Source of the DNA: Mitsuaria sp. GD03876
GTDB taxonomy: Bacteria > Pseudomonadota > Gammaproteobacteria > Burkholderiales > Burkholderiaceae_C
Length of the DNA stretch: 64,000 nt
Assembly: GCF_029840635.1 (NCBI RefSeq)
Contig: NZ_JAOCCU010000001.1
Location: 186,001 to 250,000, forward strand
Reading direction: 5' to 3'
Part shown: positions 9,457 to 15,013 of the stretch, piece by piece
How the letters are laid out: every line of letters begins with the position of its first letter
Numbering within the stretch: position 1 is the first letter of the stretch
The notes under the pieces: generated by a model
The model's database searches: none
The model's input: the letters and a program-made list of their open reading frames with translations, nothing else
What the model was told of the DNA's origin: nothing
Translations under genes and position numbers: made by a program

Positions 9457-10119
9457 TCAGACGAGGGAGTCCTGCAAGTGGCGGCGCAGGTCGCGGGCGT
9501 AACCGGTCGCCGCCTTGTGCCACTGGGGCCGCGCGACGGCTTGCAATCGCAGCAGCAGCTCGTGTTCGACGCTCAGTTCACCGAGAAATTCGCCGAGTTC
9601 AACCCCGATGTCGCGCTGCATCCGCTGCACCAGTTGCGCGGTCGTCAACGCGTCGGCGAGTGCCCGGTGCGCGCGGCCGTTGTCCGGCAGCCGGTGATAG
9701 CGGGCGAGCGTGCCGAGCTTGCAGTTCGGCGATTCCGGATAGAGGCGCCGAGCCAGTTTCACGGTACAGGCGAACTCGGGCGCGATCCGCGGCGCGGCGC
9801 CGGCGCGGTCGAGTTCATGCAGCCAGAAGCCGCGATCGAATCCCGCGTTGTGCGCGACGAAGCCGCAGCCTTCGGTGAACTCGGCGACCTCGCGCATGAC
9901 GACCGCGGCATCGGGCGCGTCCTCGAGCATCTCGTTGCTGATGCCGGTCAGGCTCTGGATCATCGGCGGGATCCACGCGCCGGTGTTCATGAGGCTCTGG
10001 TACTGGCCGACGACCTCGCCGTCGCGCAGCAGCACCGCGCCGATCTCGGTGGCGCGGCCGCCGCCCTGCGGCGAGTTGCCGGTGGTCTCGAAGTCGATGA
10101 CGGCGATGGTGCGTTTCAT
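9457..10119 (-). CDS. DEDDh 3'-5' exonuclease (DnaQ/Pol III epsilon-like)
   Basis: 220 residues. The DEDDh residues are visible: D9 and E11 in IDFETTG, D95 in AHNAGFDRGF, H151 and D156 in HRALADA. The C-terminal 60 residues carry no recognisable domain. It is shorter than a complete DnaQ with its polymerase-binding tail, so it is probably a stand-alone nuclease removing 3' nucleotides from DNA or RNA. Start chosen at the ATG overlapping the MazG stop (ATGA); the open frame continues upstream but has no family similarity. Operon with mazG suggests joint nucleotide or 3'-end quality control. Confidence 0.87.
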   Translation of the reverse strand: MKRTIAVIDFETTGNSPQGGGRATEIGAVLLRDGEVVGQYQSLMNTGAWIPPMIQSLTGISNEMLEDAPDAAVVMREVAEFTEGCGFVAHNAGFDRGFWLHELDRAGAAPRIAPEFACTVKLARRLYPESPNCKLGTLARYHRLPDNGRAHRALADALTTAQLVQRMQRDIGVELGEFLGELSVEHELLLRLQAVARPQWHKAATGYARDLRRHLQDSLV

Positions 10120-10430
10120 GCGGTCGGGGCGGGGTACTTCGTCGCGTTCATCGCGATCTTGCGCTCGACCGCCGCCGGCACGTCGACACCGGCGCGGTCC
10201 GCGATCTGCAGCAGGTACATCAGCACGTCGGCGATCTCCTCGCCGAGGTGACGGTGCTCGTCGGGCGACAGCCGCTGCGACTCCTCGGCGGTCTTCCACT
10301 GGAAGATCTCGACGAGCTCGGCCGACTCCACGACCAGCGCCATGGCCAGGTTCTTCGGCGTGAGGTACGGGTCCCAGTCGCGGGCTGCGGCGAAGTCGCG
10401 CAGCCGCCGTTGCAGGTCGGCAATGTCCAT
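10116..10430 (-). CDS. MazG-like nucleotide pyrophosphohydrolase
   Basis: 104 residues. The magnesium-binding helix pair of the MazG/dCTPase superfamily is complete: E35xxE38 in VVESAELVEIFQW and E65xxD68 in HLGEEIADVLMYLLQIAD. The size and FQW motif resemble the RS21-C6/dCTP pyrophosphatase branch, which hydrolyses (modified) dNTPs to dNMP and pyrophosphate. First gene of a two-gene operon with the DEDDh exonuclease. The upstream 386 bases contain a module with DnaA-box-like sites that is repeated upstream of queD, so regulation may be linked to replication. Confidence 0.87.
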   Translation of the reverse strand: MDIADLQRRLRDFAAARDWDPYLTPKNLAMALVVESAELVEIFQWKTAEESQRLSPDEHRHLGEEIADVLMYLLQIADRAGVDVPAAVERKIAMNATKYPAPTA

Positions 10431-10816
10431 GGGTCGGCAGTGTGCAAGTCCGTCGCCAGCGGCTCAAGCGCCGTGTGCGCTGTGAGCGCGCCACAGCAAC
10501 GCCGCAAAGAAATTTCCTGCCTCTCTTTTCAACATCAAGGTTTTATAGATCTCTCTGGTCGTCTTAGTAGAGCGGGCCGTTTTCTGTGGACAAGTCTGAA
10601 TTCTTCATGAGAACCAAGGACTTGCCTCGATCACAACCATGTGCGCGGAGGGCCTGGTTGCCGCTGCATGAACAGACAACAAGACCGTCGGGACCCGGTC
10701 GCGCTGTGGAGAACCGCCCGGTTGCGAGAAAGTTTTCCACAGCCTTGTTGGCTTTACAGCGCTGACCGGATTGCGCTAGCGCGCCGCGGGAATGGGGATA
10801 ACTTCCCCCGCGGCGT
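10431..10816. other. Non-coding region with oriC-like module A
   Basis: No gene is seen. An AT-rich stretch (10541-10550, TTTTATAGAT) runs into ATCTCTCTGGTCGT (10549-10562), then CTTAGTAG (10563-10570), a GC-rich block and TGTGGACAA (10585-10593). Further DnaA-box-like sites are TGTGGAGAA (10705-10713) and TTTTCCACA (10733-10741). A GC-rich hairpin (arms 10782-10790 and 10807-10815) just after the queE stop encloses TTATCCCCA in the loop on the minus strand. The order AT-rich / TAG-trio / GC / DnaA box is that of bacterial origin unwinding modules. The same order recurs at 12601-12824. It could instead be the mazG promoter region. Confidence 0.5.
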
Positions 10817-11464
10817 TCAATCGATCCCCACCACCTTGTGCATCTGGATCGACAGCTTCCATTGCGGATGGGCCATGCAATAGGCGATCGCCGCCTTGGT
10901 GTTCTGCTTCTGCAGCACCGAGTCCATCGGCTGGAGGAAGAAGTGGTCGAAGGCCAGGCCGGCGAAGCGCTCGGGCTGGGCCAGCGGCTGTGGATAAACC
11001 AGCTTCAACTCGTTGCCGCGGGTCAGCACGACCTCGGCGTCCGCTTTCGGGCTGACGCAGATCCAGTCCAGGCCTTCGGGCGCGGGCTGCGTGCCGTTGG
11101 TCTCGACGGCGATCTCGAAACCCAGCGCCTTCAGCGCGGTGATCAGCGGTCCGTCCAGCTGCAGCAGCGGCTCGCCGCCGGTGCACACGACGTAGGGCGT
11201 GCCGGTGCGGCGGCCCTGCTCGTCGGTCGGCCACTTCGCGGCGATCGCCTCGGCGAGCGCGTCGGCCGAGGCGAACTTGCCGCCGCCCTGCCCGTCCGTG
11301 CCGACGAAGTCGGTGTCGCAGAAGGTGCAGACGGCGCCGGCGCGGTCCTGCTCGCGGCCGCTCCACAGGTTGCAGCCGGCGAAACGGCAGAACACGGCCG
11401 CGCGGCCGGCCTGGGCGCCCTCGCCCTGCAGCGTGTAGAACATTTCCTTGACGGCGTAGGTCAT
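10817..11464 (-). CDS. queE: 7-carboxy-7-deazaguanine synthase
   Basis: 215 residues. Radical-SAM enzyme converting 6-carboxy-tetrahydropterin to 7-carboxy-7-deazaguanine in queuosine precursor synthesis. The N-terminus has TLQGEGAQAGR for substrate binding. The cluster cysteines are C31, C46 and C49 in the CX14CX2C spacing typical of the proteobacterial QueE branch, then TGGEPLLQ and ETNGTQ for SAM binding. The start overlaps the queD stop by ATGA. A perfect DnaA-box sequence TGTGGATAA (10989-10997) lies inside the coding region. The product feeds QueC, which is not in the window. Confidence 0.95.
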   Translation of the reverse strand: MTYAVKEMFYTLQGEGAQAGRAAVFCRFAGCNLWSGREQDRAGAVCTFCDTDFVGTDGQGGGKFASADALAEAIAAKWPTDEQGRRTGTPYVVCTGGEPLLQLDGPLITALKALGFEIAVETNGTQPAPEGLDWICVSPKADAEVVLTRGNELKLVYPQPLAQPERFAGLAFDHFFLQPMDSVLQKQNTKAAIAYCMAHPQWKLSIQMHKVVGID

Positions 11465-12573
11465 ACCGGGATCAGCTCCTCGAACGGACCGTGGCTGACG
11501 ATGGCGCCGCTGCCGCGGGTCTCGAACAGGTCGACGCGCTCCAGCGGCTCGAGCTTGGCCTTGGCCTCCTTCAGCACCCACGCGGCCAGGCTGGCGGTGT
11601 CCGAATCGGGCAGGCCGGCGAGTTCGTGCAGCGGGTGGTGGTCCATCGCCTTGAAGATCGGGTTGAACAGCTCCTTCACGTCGCCGAAGTCCATCGCCCA
11701 GCCGTGGACCTGGTCCAGCGGCGCGCTCAGGTGCAGGCGCAGCGTGAAGGTGTGGCCGTGGATGCCGGCCAGCGGATGGTCCGCCGGCGCGCGCTTGAGC
11801 TTGACCGCGCTGTCCAGGGTGAATTCCTTCCAGATCCGGTAGCGCTCGCCGTCGAAGTTGGCGCCGCTGGAGCCGGTCTCGTAGACGGTGACCCAGCTCA
11901 GCTCGGGCAGCTGCGGCTTGAGCCGCGCCCACAGCCAGGACGAGATCAGCTCGCTGGTCGGGTTCGACAGGCCCTCGATCTCGTTGAGGCACTGGTAGTT
12001 CAGCTGCGCGTGGAACGGCGCCCACAGCGCGTCCAGGTGGTCGTAGTCGATGCTCAGGTCGCGTTCGCCGAGGTCCTGGTTGGCGTGCAGGATCAGCTCG
12101 AAGCCGTGGCCGTGCATGCGGCCGCACTTGTGGCCCATCGGGACGTTGGGCAGTTGGTGGGCGGCCTGGAAGCGATAGCGGCGCCAGACATGCGCGTGGC
12201 CGTTGGCGTCCAGGTCGACGCCGGAATGCGTGGTGCTGTGGATGCCGACCTGGGTGATGCCGGGGACCTGGAACTCGGTCTCCAGGCGATGGCGGATCCA
12301 GCGGGCGATGTTCTCGTCGGTCGGCTGGGGGATGTGCTGGTTCAGCAGCGCATGGTCCAGCGGGGCGACGCAGCGTTCGAGGCAGTCACGCAGCGCGTGG
12401 ACCTCGCCGCCGGGGAACGGTGCCCAGCCGGCGGGCAATTCGGCGCGGACGGTGGCCAGGTAGCTGTGGCCGTGCAGGCCGCGGGCGCGATGTCCGGGGG
12501 GGAGCGCGTCGATCTGACACGCTGACTCGAAACCCGCCGAAGCGGTGAAAAGAGAGGCGGGGGAAGAAGACAT
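11461..12573 (-). CDS. queD: 6-carboxy-tetrahydropterin synthase, triple T-fold fusion
   Basis: 370 residues, about three times a normal QueD (near 120-140). Three consecutive T-fold repeats are visible at about 10-122, 130-241 and 244-358, each with an HGH motif and an E-containing strand. Only repeat 2 keeps the full zinc set and nucleophile (H139, C150, H154, H156); repeat 1 has C19 and A30, repeat 3 has V257 and L268 at those places. Conversely repeat 2 has N192-Y193 where repeats 1 and 3 keep the catalytic Asp-His pair (D73-H74, D311-H312). In PTPS-family enzymes the Cys and the Asp-His come from adjacent subunits, so one composite site per chain is plausible. Makes the QueE substrate from dihydroneopterin triphosphate. 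Confidence 0.9.
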   Translation of the reverse strand: MSSSPASLFTASAGFESACQIDALPPGHRARGLHGHSYLATVRAELPAGWAPFPGGEVHALRDCLERCVAPLDHALLNQHIPQPTDENIARWIRHRLETEFQVPGITQVGIHSTTHSGVDLDANGHAHVWRRYRFQAAHQLPNVPMGHKCGRMHGHGFELILHANQDLGERDLSIDYDHLDALWAPFHAQLNYQCLNEIEGLSNPTSELISSWLWARLKPQLPELSWVTVYETGSSGANFDGERYRIWKEFTLDSAVKLKRAPADHPLAGIHGHTFTLRLHLSAPLDQVHGWAMDFGDVKELFNPIFKAMDHHPLHELAGLPDSDTASLAAWVLKEAKAKLEPLERVDLFETRGSGAIVSHGPFEELIPV

Positions 12574-12914
12574 CCCGAGAGTGTGACACGCCGGCTTTTC
12601 TTATCCCTTTATGTTGAATATCTCTCTGGTCGTATTGGTAGGTGTTGGCGGGTTTGTGTGGACAACGACCGAATTGCTTGTCGCATCAACGACTTGCGAA
12701 CAGGGCAACGATGTGGGCGGGACCCGGGGGAACGGCGGGATGAAACGACAACAAGTTCGCCGGGACCGGTTCGGCTGTGGACAACCCGGCAGTTGTTCAG
12801 CGCGCATCCCCAGGGTTGTGCACAGCCCCGCCATCAAGACCAAATCGCCCGTGAGGGCGAAAAAATGCCCCGCATCGCGGGGCTTCGTCATTCAGTCCAG
12901 GTGAATCTGCCGGA
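12574..12914. other. Non-coding region with oriC-like module B and a terminator
   Basis: No gene is seen. 12601-12824 repeats the order of module A: AT-rich TTATCCCTTTATGTTGAATA, the identical 14-mer ATCTCTCTGGTCGT (12620-12633), TTGGTAG (12635-12641), a GC-rich block, TGTGGACAA (12657-12665), GACAACAAG (12747-12755), TGTGGACAA again (12776-12784) and TTGTGCACA (12816-12824). From the 14-mer to the second box is 156 bases in both modules. It lies upstream of queD, so a promoter role is the alternative. The right end holds the terminator of the S1/P1 nuclease gene. Confidence 0.5.
12860..12883 (-). terminator. Rho-independent terminator of S1/P1 nuclease gene
   Basis: Read on the minus strand, GCCCCGC-GAT-GCGGGGC (12883-12867) is followed by A and six Ts, about 30 bases after the nuclease stop. 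A textbook hairpin plus T-run. Confidence 0.88.
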
Positions 12915-13955
12915 TCACTTCTTGTCCGGCCAGATGCTGCGCAGCAGCTGCGCCAGGCGGGCGCCGCCCTTGATGACGTTCAGCCGCGTCTGCTCCAGGC
13001 TGCGGGCCTCGTACCCCGCCGGCGGCGTGGCCAGCCAGCGCGGGCCGCGCAGGCTCTGCTGCCGGGGACCGAAATTCATGCCGTCGAACGCGTCGCGCGC
13101 GCCCAGCAGCGATTCGCTCGCCCACAACACCGGCCAGTCGTCCGGATTGCCCGTCGCCGGCGCCACGTCCTTGGCCAACGCCGGCATCGCCCCCAGCTGC
13201 TCCGGGCTCAGGCGGCCCGGCAGGCCGTCCCAGTAGCTGTGGAGGTTGCCGCCCGGCGTGCCATCCGGCCGCGGCAGCGTGATCGCATTGGCGCCGACCG
13301 TGTGCGTCTGCGCGTCGGCGCCCTGCTTGTCCGGGTCGTACGGCTTGCCGTCCGCGTCCAGGTAGAGCGAGCCCATGTGCAGCGGCTGATGCATGTCGCC
13401 CAACGCATGCACCACCAGCGCCAGCGCGTCGCGTTCGGTGAAATCCATCGGCGGGGTCTGCTTGCCGGTGCGCAGCACCAGCACCGCGGCCTTCAGCGCC
13501 GGCACGATGTCGTGATCGCTGGTGCCGATCGCGCCCGGCACGTACCGGCCCCGCTGGATCGCGACGTTCGCGTAGTGGTACTGCTTGTTGCAGGACTCCT
13601 CGCCCGGCTTGGGCTCGCACTGCTCGAAGTTGCGCTTCACGTAATCGCGCATCCGGGCTTCTTCCTCGGCGTTGTTCTCGAACACCGCGCACTCCGGGAA
13701 CCGGCCGGTCGCCGCGTACTTGAAGTCGTTCCCGGTGTCGATGCCCTTCACGCAGTCGTCCCACACCGCGATGTCGCGCAGCGAGACCGGACCCAGGATG
13801 CGCTGGACCTCCGCCTCGGCGCGATGGCCCTTGATCAGCTGGGCGGCGATCTCGCCGACCGTGTTGTGGCCGACCGCGCCGAAGCCGAAAGCCTGGCCGC
13901 AGCACGCCGCCAGCAGCGACAACGCGGCCAGGCCGCGGGTGATGGAAACGCTCAT
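12915..13955 (-). CDS. S1/P1-family nuclease, secreted
   Basis: 346 residues with a signal peptide (residues 1-24; LSLLAACCGQAFG before the cut). The mature protein begins FGAVGH, close to the WGxxGH start whose backbone and His bind zinc in S1/P1 nucleases. Other zinc ligands are in VWDDC, YHYANV, HALGDMHQPLH and NLHSYWD. It would hydrolyse single-stranded DNA or RNA, or 3'-nucleotides, in the periplasm or outside, probably for phosphate or nucleoside scavenging. Start at 13955 chosen to give a proper signal peptide; the longer frame has none. A strong terminator follows. Confidence 0.92.
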   Translation of the reverse strand: MSVSITRGLAALSLLAACCGQAFGFGAVGHNTVGEIAAQLIKGHRAEAEVQRILGPVSLRDIAVWDDCVKGIDTGNDFKYAATGRFPECAVFENNAEEEARMRDYVKRNFEQCEPKPGEESCNKQYHYANVAIQRGRYVPGAIGTSDHDIVPALKAAVLVLRTGKQTPPMDFTERDALALVVHALGDMHQPLHMGSLYLDADGKPYDPDKQGADAQTHTVGANAITLPRPDGTPGGNLHSYWDGLPGRLSPEQLGAMPALAKDVAPATGNPDDWPVLWASESLLGARDAFDGMNFGPRQQSLRGPRWLATPPAGYEARSLEQTRLNVIKGGARLAQLLRSIWPDKK

Positions 13956-14153
13956 GTCGTCGAACCTGTCTCGAGGGATCGCGGATTGTGCATGTCGCTC
14001 GATGACAGGCCGCAACGGAGATTCCCGCGTCCGCCGGCCGGCCGGGCGCATCTCGCCATATGCGCCGGCCGCATGTGCATCGGCAAAGCGCTTCGTTCGG
14101 CAAATGAGCGCGGCTGCCTAAGCTGACCCTCACCTTTTCAGGAGCCCCACCCC

Positions 14154-14372
14154 ATGAGCATCACCGCCATCAATGTCCGCAACCAGTTCCGCGGCACCAT
14201 CAAGGAGATCGTCGAAGGCCCGGTCGTGTCGGAGGTCGACGTGCAGACCGCCGGCGGGCTGATCGTGACGTCGGTGATCACGACGCGCTCGGTGAAGGAA
14301 CTCCATCTGACCGTCGGCAAGGAAGTCGTGGCGCTGGTGAAGTCCACCGAGGTGTCGATCGCCACGCTCTGA
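14154..14372 (+). CDS. Mop-type molybdopterin/molybdate-binding protein (TOBE)
   Basis: 72 residues forming one TOBE/Mop domain: ISAxNxxxG-type opening (INVRNQFRGTIKEI), EVDVQTAGGLIVTSVITTRSVKEL and the closing GKEVVALVKSTEV. Such molbindins bind molybdate or tungstate as oligomers and buffer it in the cytoplasm. AGGAG precedes the ATG, and a TAAGCT -10-like box lies at 14119-14124. No other molybdate gene is nearby. The hydrolase at 14393 follows after 20 bases and may be co-transcribed. Confidence 0.92.
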   Translation: MSITAINVRNQFRGTIKEIVEGPVVSEVDVQTAGGLIVTSVITTRSVKELHLTVGKEVVALVKSTEVSIATL

Positions 14373-14392
14373 CCCCGAGGCAGGAGACCGCC

Positions 14393-15013
14393 ATGGCGCT
14401 CTACCCCCATCGCGCGGCGCACCGCACCGGCAGCGCCGAACCCCGCCTGCTGATCATCCCGGGCCTGCACGACAGCGGCCCGGCGCATTGGCAAAGTTGG
14501 CTGGAGCAGCAGTACCGCGACGCGCACCGGGTGCGCCAGCGCGATTTCAGCCGGCCCGAGCTCGAGCGCTGGTCCGACCGGATCCAGGCGCGGATCGAGA
14601 ACGCGGGCCCGGGCGAGTGGATCGCCGTGGCGCACAGCTTCGGCTGCCTGGCGCTGGCGCATCACCTGCAGCGGCATCCGGATTCCCCGGTGCGCGAGGC
14701 GCTGCTGGTGGCGCCGGCCGAGCCGGAAAAATTCGGCCTGGCGGAGAGCCTGCCGCACCAGCGCCTGGGTCGGCCGACGGCGCTGATCGCCAGCCAGAAC
14801 GACCCGTGGATGAGCGCCTCCAGCGCTTTGCGCTGGGCCACGAGATGGGGCAGCAGCTACAGCAACATCGGCCAGGTCGGCCACATCAACACCGAGTCCG
14901 GCTTCGGGCCGTTCCCGCTGGCCAAGCGTTGGGTCGAAGCCGCCCGCGCCCGGGCCGCGCGCGAACGCCGGCCCGACCACGCCAGCATCCTGGAGTGGTC
15001 GTTCTCGGTCTGA
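14393..15013 (+). CDS. RBBP9/YdeN-family serine hydrolase
   Basis: 206 residues. An alpha/beta hydrolase of the RBBP9 type: LLIIPGLHDSGPAHWQSWLE at the start, nucleophile S82 in AHSFGC, acid in SQNDPWM and His in VGHINTESG. The family includes small serine hydrolases of mostly unknown substrate. No signal or membrane segment, so cytoplasmic. GGAG stands before the ATG. It follows the Mop gene closely but has no functional link to it that I can see. Confidence 0.9.
   Translation: MALYPHRAAHRTGSAEPRLLIIPGLHDSGPAHWQSWLEQQYRDAHRVRQRDFSRPELERWSDRIQARIENAGPGEWIAVAHSFGCLALAHHLQRHPDSPVREALLVAPAEPEKFGLAESLPHQRLGRPTALIASQNDPWMSASSALRWATRWGSSYSNIGQVGHINTESGFGPFPLAKRWVEAARARAARERRPDHASILEWSFSV

Follow-up and report, generated by a model that had tools for sequence, protein, structure and literature searches.

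The window analysed here, a 64,000-nucleotide stretch of the Mitsuaria sp. GD03876 genome (contig NZ_JAOCCU010000001.1, positions 186,001 to 250,000), carries at window positions 11461..12573 an open reading frame (orf) that runs from ATG to TGA and codes for a triple-domain QueD of 370 amino acids; this and every feature described below lies on the minus strand, and all coordinates are those of the window. Three stretches of the orf match the Pfam PTPS profile PF01242 (E-value 5e-55) and three match the NCBIfam QueD equivalog TIGR03367, with 144 bits summed over the three stretches (cut-off 89.25); when the domains are scored one at a time, none of the repeats among the matches listed reaches this value. 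The three QueD-like repeats in one 370-residue chain, as described in the original prediction, are thus recovered by both profiles. No family other than PTPS matches the orf at E-values up to 1, and it is not a member of the QueF family. Among the best 80 of 565 matches, the nearest named proteins are from Mitsuaria sp. PDC51 and a Rubrivivax metagenome-assembled genome (MAG), at 92% identity.

The three repeats were aligned with E. coli QueD, for which the reference positions are H16, C27, H31, H33, D70-H71 and E110; repeat 2 is identical to it at 49/115 positions, repeat 3 at 37/116 and repeat 1 at 29/110. Repeat 2 (amino acids 127–244; 11842..12195) holds the zinc ligands H139 (12157..12159), H154 and H156 (H154-G155-H156, 12106..12114), the catalytic cysteine C150 (12124..12126), PTSE at residues 205–208, and the pterin-anchoring glutamate E232 (11878..11880; E. 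coli E110), with N192-Y193 (11995..12000) replacing the Asp-His pair. Repeat 3 (amino acids 245–362; 11488..11841) keeps D311-H312 (11638..11643), H272/H274 and E351, and has lost the first zinc histidine (now V257) and the cysteine (L268). Repeat 1 (amino acids 8–126; 12196..12552) keeps its HGH (H34-G35-H36, 12466–12474) and D73-H74 (12352..12357), and the first zinc histidine (C19), the cysteine (A30) and the pterin glutamate (S113) are gone. The motif CxxxHGH, given as the QueD signature in PMC5041015, is present in repeat 2 (C150-GRM-HGH), the equivalents being AxxxHGH in repeat 1 and LxxxHGH in repeat 3. All of the zinc triad, cysteine, Asp-His pair and pterin glutamate are therefore in the protein but spread over its repeats, and instead of the one T-fold domain per chain with a complete catalytic set that defines a classical QueD, there are three domains, none of them complete. 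The residues named beforehand (C19, A30, D73-H74, H139, C150, H154, H156, N192-Y193, V257, L268 and D311-H312) are all correct in this alignment; the loss of zinc histidines and cysteine from repeats 1 and 3 holds for the first histidine and the cysteine, but not for the HGH pair, which both repeats retain (H34/H36 and H272/H274).

A total of 180 triple proteins was gathered, and 156 of these were kept at less than 95% identity for conservation counts. Left out of the set were this protein's own copy (L004) and a group of fragments, split genes, single domains and wrong frames (L085–L093), together with L094, L101 and L102, which gave no match. Eighty named loci were found by sequence patterns inside repeat 2, which biases the set toward conservation of that repeat; pattern-found triples make up 65 of the 156, and the remaining 91 were counted separately, with all 91 holding both halves, that of repeat 2 and that of repeat 3. 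Over the whole set the zinc triad, cysteine and pterin glutamate of repeat 2 are present in 156/156, as is PTSE at each position, and the Asp-His pair of repeat 3 is present in 156/156. The pair is found in repeat 1 in 39 and in repeat 2 in 30, and in 90 of the 156 the pair in repeat 3 is the only one; the zinc triad of repeat 2 is the only one in every protein, with no full triad in repeat 1 or 3 (0/156). A cysteine occupies the catalytic position of repeat 1 in 7/156 and of repeat 3 in none, and the pterin glutamate is absent from repeat 1 throughout and kept by repeat 3 in 125/156. The mean frequency of the top residue is 0.72 in repeat 2, 0.66 in repeat 3 and 0.60 in repeat 1, and repeat 2 is the least changed of the three. 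In a control set of PTPS/QueD proteins with a single domain, taken from the same order (22 loci tried, 18 with a usable segment), the Asp-His pair lies within the same domain in 18/18, and the first zinc histidine and the cysteine are each present in 17/18.

On a tree of 95 triples, the Asp-His pair of repeat 2 (present in 22) takes 12 changes, at least eight of them forced by well-supported branches, and His74 of repeat 1 (present in 14) takes four, at least three of them forced; from these changes and the counts it follows that the Asp-His pair drifts in repeats 1 and 2 but not in repeat 3. If the enzyme is active, then, judged by its sequence, the live site must combine repeats 2 and 3, and the Asp-His donor would be repeat 3, because its pair is invariant in 156/156 while that of repeat 1 is found in 39/156. 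The complementary losses seen in the original prediction – zinc triad and cysteine only in repeat 2, whose own Asp-His pair is gone – are borne out, with the split between repeats 2 and 3 invariant in the 156 triples. Its split active site also stands, with the donor, left open there as repeat 1 or 3, now assigned to repeat 3, and its one or two working sites per chain are narrowed to an expected one, repeat 3 being the sole donor. Mutual information between columns was dominated by the split of two main clades and so was not used. Twenty-five divergent triples (L064–L084 and L097–L100, mainly of families f28, f43 and f51) have an invariant Asp-His pair in repeat 3, and 24 of the 25 have lost the first HGH histidine of that repeat; since this residue is gone as well, decay of the dead site appears to have gone further in them.

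The triple chain is very probably the QueD of the cell. A PF01242 search of the whole assembly (6.36 Mb in 94 contigs, 100% estimated completeness) gives no match at E-values up to 10 other than the three repeats of this orf, and so rules out at that threshold the second, single-domain QueD elsewhere in the genome that had been raised as a possible objection. There is one QueC gene and one Tgt gene. Directly downstream lies queE (10817..11464; TIGR04508, 365.5 bits, cut-off 240), whose ATG (11464–11462) overlaps the queD stop codon (11463–11461), so that the two genes share 4 nt, and which places the triple gene in a preQ0-synthesis context. The same neighbour adjoins the triple gene at 70 of the 80 named loci, 69 times downstream and once upstream, and the 4-nt overlap recurs at 23 of the 80, with the start extrapolated. 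Other PTPS genes were looked for in 80 of 95 triple-bearing genomes, and 77 of these 80, this one included, have no more than three PTPS matches. The others are G160 and G299 with six matches each and G214 with four, from a triple and a single-domain gene, the latter being the only single-domain gene outside a triple among the matches listed. Each of G160 and G299 has two different triple QueD genes (L014 and L095, and L040 and L096, respectively). A plasmid-borne form was considered and rejected, as 169 plasmid records matched and none over 80% of the query, and no known riboswitch or other Rfam RNA was found near the gene at E-values up to 0.1 in 10000–14500.

A profile search for the spread of the triple form, as originally suggested, finds carriers in samples of the family, order and phylum. 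In the family sample of 200 genomes, 36 have a full-length triple, this one included; in the order sample 65 of 399 match at E-values up to 1e-30, with 60 spanning most of the chain and five being fragments, split genes or single domains; and 14 of 398 in the phylum sample match at E-values up to 1e-40. Named carriers among the best 80 of 565 matches include Roseateles, Paucibacter, Pelomonas, Inhella, Ideonella and Ramlibacter, as well as Thiocapsa, Marichromatium, Thiorhodococcus, Imhoffiella and a Thiothrix MAG. When 21 triples were split into their repeats and placed in a tree with 20 single-domain sequences, each repeat formed one side of a branch, with supports of 100/100, 91/84 and 100/99 from an alignment of only 119 columns. 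This pattern fits a single triplication followed by parallel descent of the repeats, in line with the gene triplication that had been proposed. In G511 the triple (L085) occurs as two adjacent open frames covering amino acids 9–166 and 222–362, which could be a disrupted gene, a sequencing error or a genuine split. A triple on a contig from a different phylum (L165, in a MAG named Nitrospinaceae) groups with Chromatiaceae-like sequences, by gene transfer or because the contig is misbinned.

Single-domain QueD/PTPS-I enzymes (E. coli 4ntk, 4ntm and 4ntn; P. aeruginosa 2oba) share with the triple protein the fold, the catalytic residues, the CxxxHGH of repeat 2 and the linkage to queE; they differ in having one domain per chain that holds all of the catalytic residues, whereas the triple has three domains and distributes these residues over repeats 2 and 3. 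The 6-pyruvoyltetrahydropterin synthase of eukaryotes (rat 1gtq, human 3i2b) resembles the triple protein in zinc and an intersubunit catalytic triad, both named in the title of Burgisser 1995, and PMC7546909 describes PTPS as a dimer of trimers in which each site lies where three monomers meet; the eukaryotic enzyme is, however, a homohexamer of one-domain subunits with six sites and a different product. Uricase and GTP cyclohydrolase IB are also tandem T-fold proteins, but with two domains, other chemistry and about 3–9% identity. A single chain of the triple protein was predicted with AlphaFold2 from an alignment of 77 of the 80 named loci, three being excluded for length; the predicted packing is confident (pLDDT 94.3, pTM 0.91), and a uricase fold match covers repeats 1–2 best and barely tests the place of repeat 3 in the ring.

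We propose that the product is a 6-carboxytetrahydropterin synthase, which would catalyse step 2 of preQ0/queuosine synthesis by turning dihydroneopterin triphosphate into 6-carboxytetrahydropterin. Tight beta hairpins would join what are normally three individual T-fold subunits, so that one chain replaces a trimer, and a head-to-head stack of two chains would probably take over from the usual hexamer. In each ring just one site out of three would survive, giving two per dimer: repeat 2 would supply zinc (through H139, H154 and H156), C150, and the pterin-binding PTSE and E232, and repeat 3 would supply D311-H312 of the Cys-Asp-His triad. That repeat 3 may be the neighbour of repeat 2 in the ring, within one chain, or may reach it from the partner chain across the ring–ring contact; both fit a pairing of repeats 2 and 3. 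Repeat 1, its own site dead, may be a structural spacer or a dimer-contact domain. Based on sequence comparison, we put the probability of this explanation as a whole – the sole QueD, a trimer-replacing chain, and one site per ring from repeats 2 and 3 – at about 0.8.

A more specific arrangement, put forward tentatively and at somewhat less than even odds, is an obligate homodimer with two sites in trans, each made of repeat 2 and the partner's repeat 3; as part of this proposal, the dead sites of repeat 1 would form the dimer contact, through the invariant HGH together with Arg or Cys at position 19 and Asp73 of the facing repeat 1 domains. It derives from subunit labels in an abstract by Nar from 1994, in which Cys42 and Glu133 are reported to belong to subunit A and His89 to B; we take B to be of the opposite trimer. 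With a two-fold axis through the pair of repeat 1 domains, the pairings in trans would be 1–1′, 2–3′ and 3–2′, and only 2–3′ keeps both halves.

The closest precedent is the bimodular QueF of V. cholerae and E. coli, an enzyme of the same pathway in which, according to PMC5372742, functional elements lie on separate T-fold domains and a homodimer has two sites; the analogy extends across a different enzyme, domain number and order of parts. No description of a tandem or triple QueD was found in the open-licence literature, which is weak evidence since the main structural papers are outside that coverage.

Several observations weigh against the explanation we prefer. PMC5372742 places the QueF cysteine in the C-terminal module, opposite to the triple, with its cysteine in repeat 2 and partner in repeat 3, and because of this reversed order the precedent does not fix the direction of pairing. 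The pairing of repeats 2 and 3 rests on conservation. At eight of the 80 named loci queE is not matched although 700 bases or more of downstream DNA are available, and at two more there is too little DNA to judge. D73-H74 is still present in this protein. If repeat 1 were purely a spacer, its invariant HGH (156/156) and a D86 conserved at 97% would be left without an explanation. Finally, seven single-domain QueD-like proteins, all from another single family of the order (L206, L088 and L219–L223, in genomes G364, G512, G286, G397, G484, G326 and G426) have Arg for the first zinc histidine and keep the cysteine, HGH, Asp-His, PTSE and glutamate. These may be a zinc-site variant of QueD. In four of their genomes they are the only TIGR03367 match, so that loss of the first zinc histidine is not in itself proof of a dead site, and in six there is no match to this type of queE within about 2 kb of the gene. 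Unlike these variants, repeats 1 and 3 also lack the cysteine (repeat 1 in 149/156).

The invariant HGH of repeat 1 could instead mark a second, altered site in that repeat, or in repeat 3, a Cys/His/His or Arg/His/His pocket for a metal or a regulatory pterin. Position 19 is Arg in 88 and Cys in 56 of the 156, the glutamate of repeat 3 is kept in 125, and single-domain relatives with Arg there look otherwise complete; yet repeat 1 lacks the cysteine in 149 and the glutamate in all 156, and repeat 3 has lost its first HGH histidine in 25. We consider such a site unlikely, and it could coexist with the preferred explanation. Repeat 2 might also borrow its Asp-His from repeat 1, with the pair of repeat 3 kept for another purpose, for example to serve the HGH of repeat 1. 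This protein has D73-H74, Asp is kept by repeat 1 in 132/156 alongside the invariant HGH, and PMC5372742 implies that bimodular QueF has its partner helix motif one domain earlier. Most relatives have Asp-Tyr, however: His74 is replaced by Tyr in 113 and by Leu in 4 of the 156, so that 117 enzymes would be without Asp-His at their only zinc site, while the repeat 3 pair never varies. A donor in repeat 1 therefore seems improbable to us.

Slightly less probable still is that repeat 2 is active without Asp-His and repeat 3 conserved for folding only. Repeat 3 does have 23 positions conserved at 95% or more, but a structural role fails to explain why the catalytic pair is invariant in this repeat while it drifts in the other two, and the pair is present in 18/18 of the single-domain controls. 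An inactive chain, with a different QueD doing its work, is very improbable. Two of the three sites are clearly degenerate, but the catalytic residues of repeats 2 and 3 are invariant, the genome yields no further PTPS match at E-values up to 10, and the triple is the sole PTPS gene in most of the relatives sampled as well; for this assembly the idea is refuted unless the gene lies in a gap or is of an unrelated family.

The preferred reading, one site per ring from repeats 2 and 3, would make this QueD a natural example of an oligomeric enzyme that became a single chain and then went down to one site per ring from the original three, the halves of that site being fixed on different repeats across a wide range of Beta- and Gammaproteobacteria. 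The curated QueD model labels the triple chain simply as 'QueD', which hides the architecture and calls for caution in annotation. As each half occurs once per chain, clean mutants could be made, allowing a direct test of the source of the Asp-His in a PTPS-family site. Since bimodular QueF acts two steps later in the same pathway, this kind of change would have been seen twice in queuosine synthesis.
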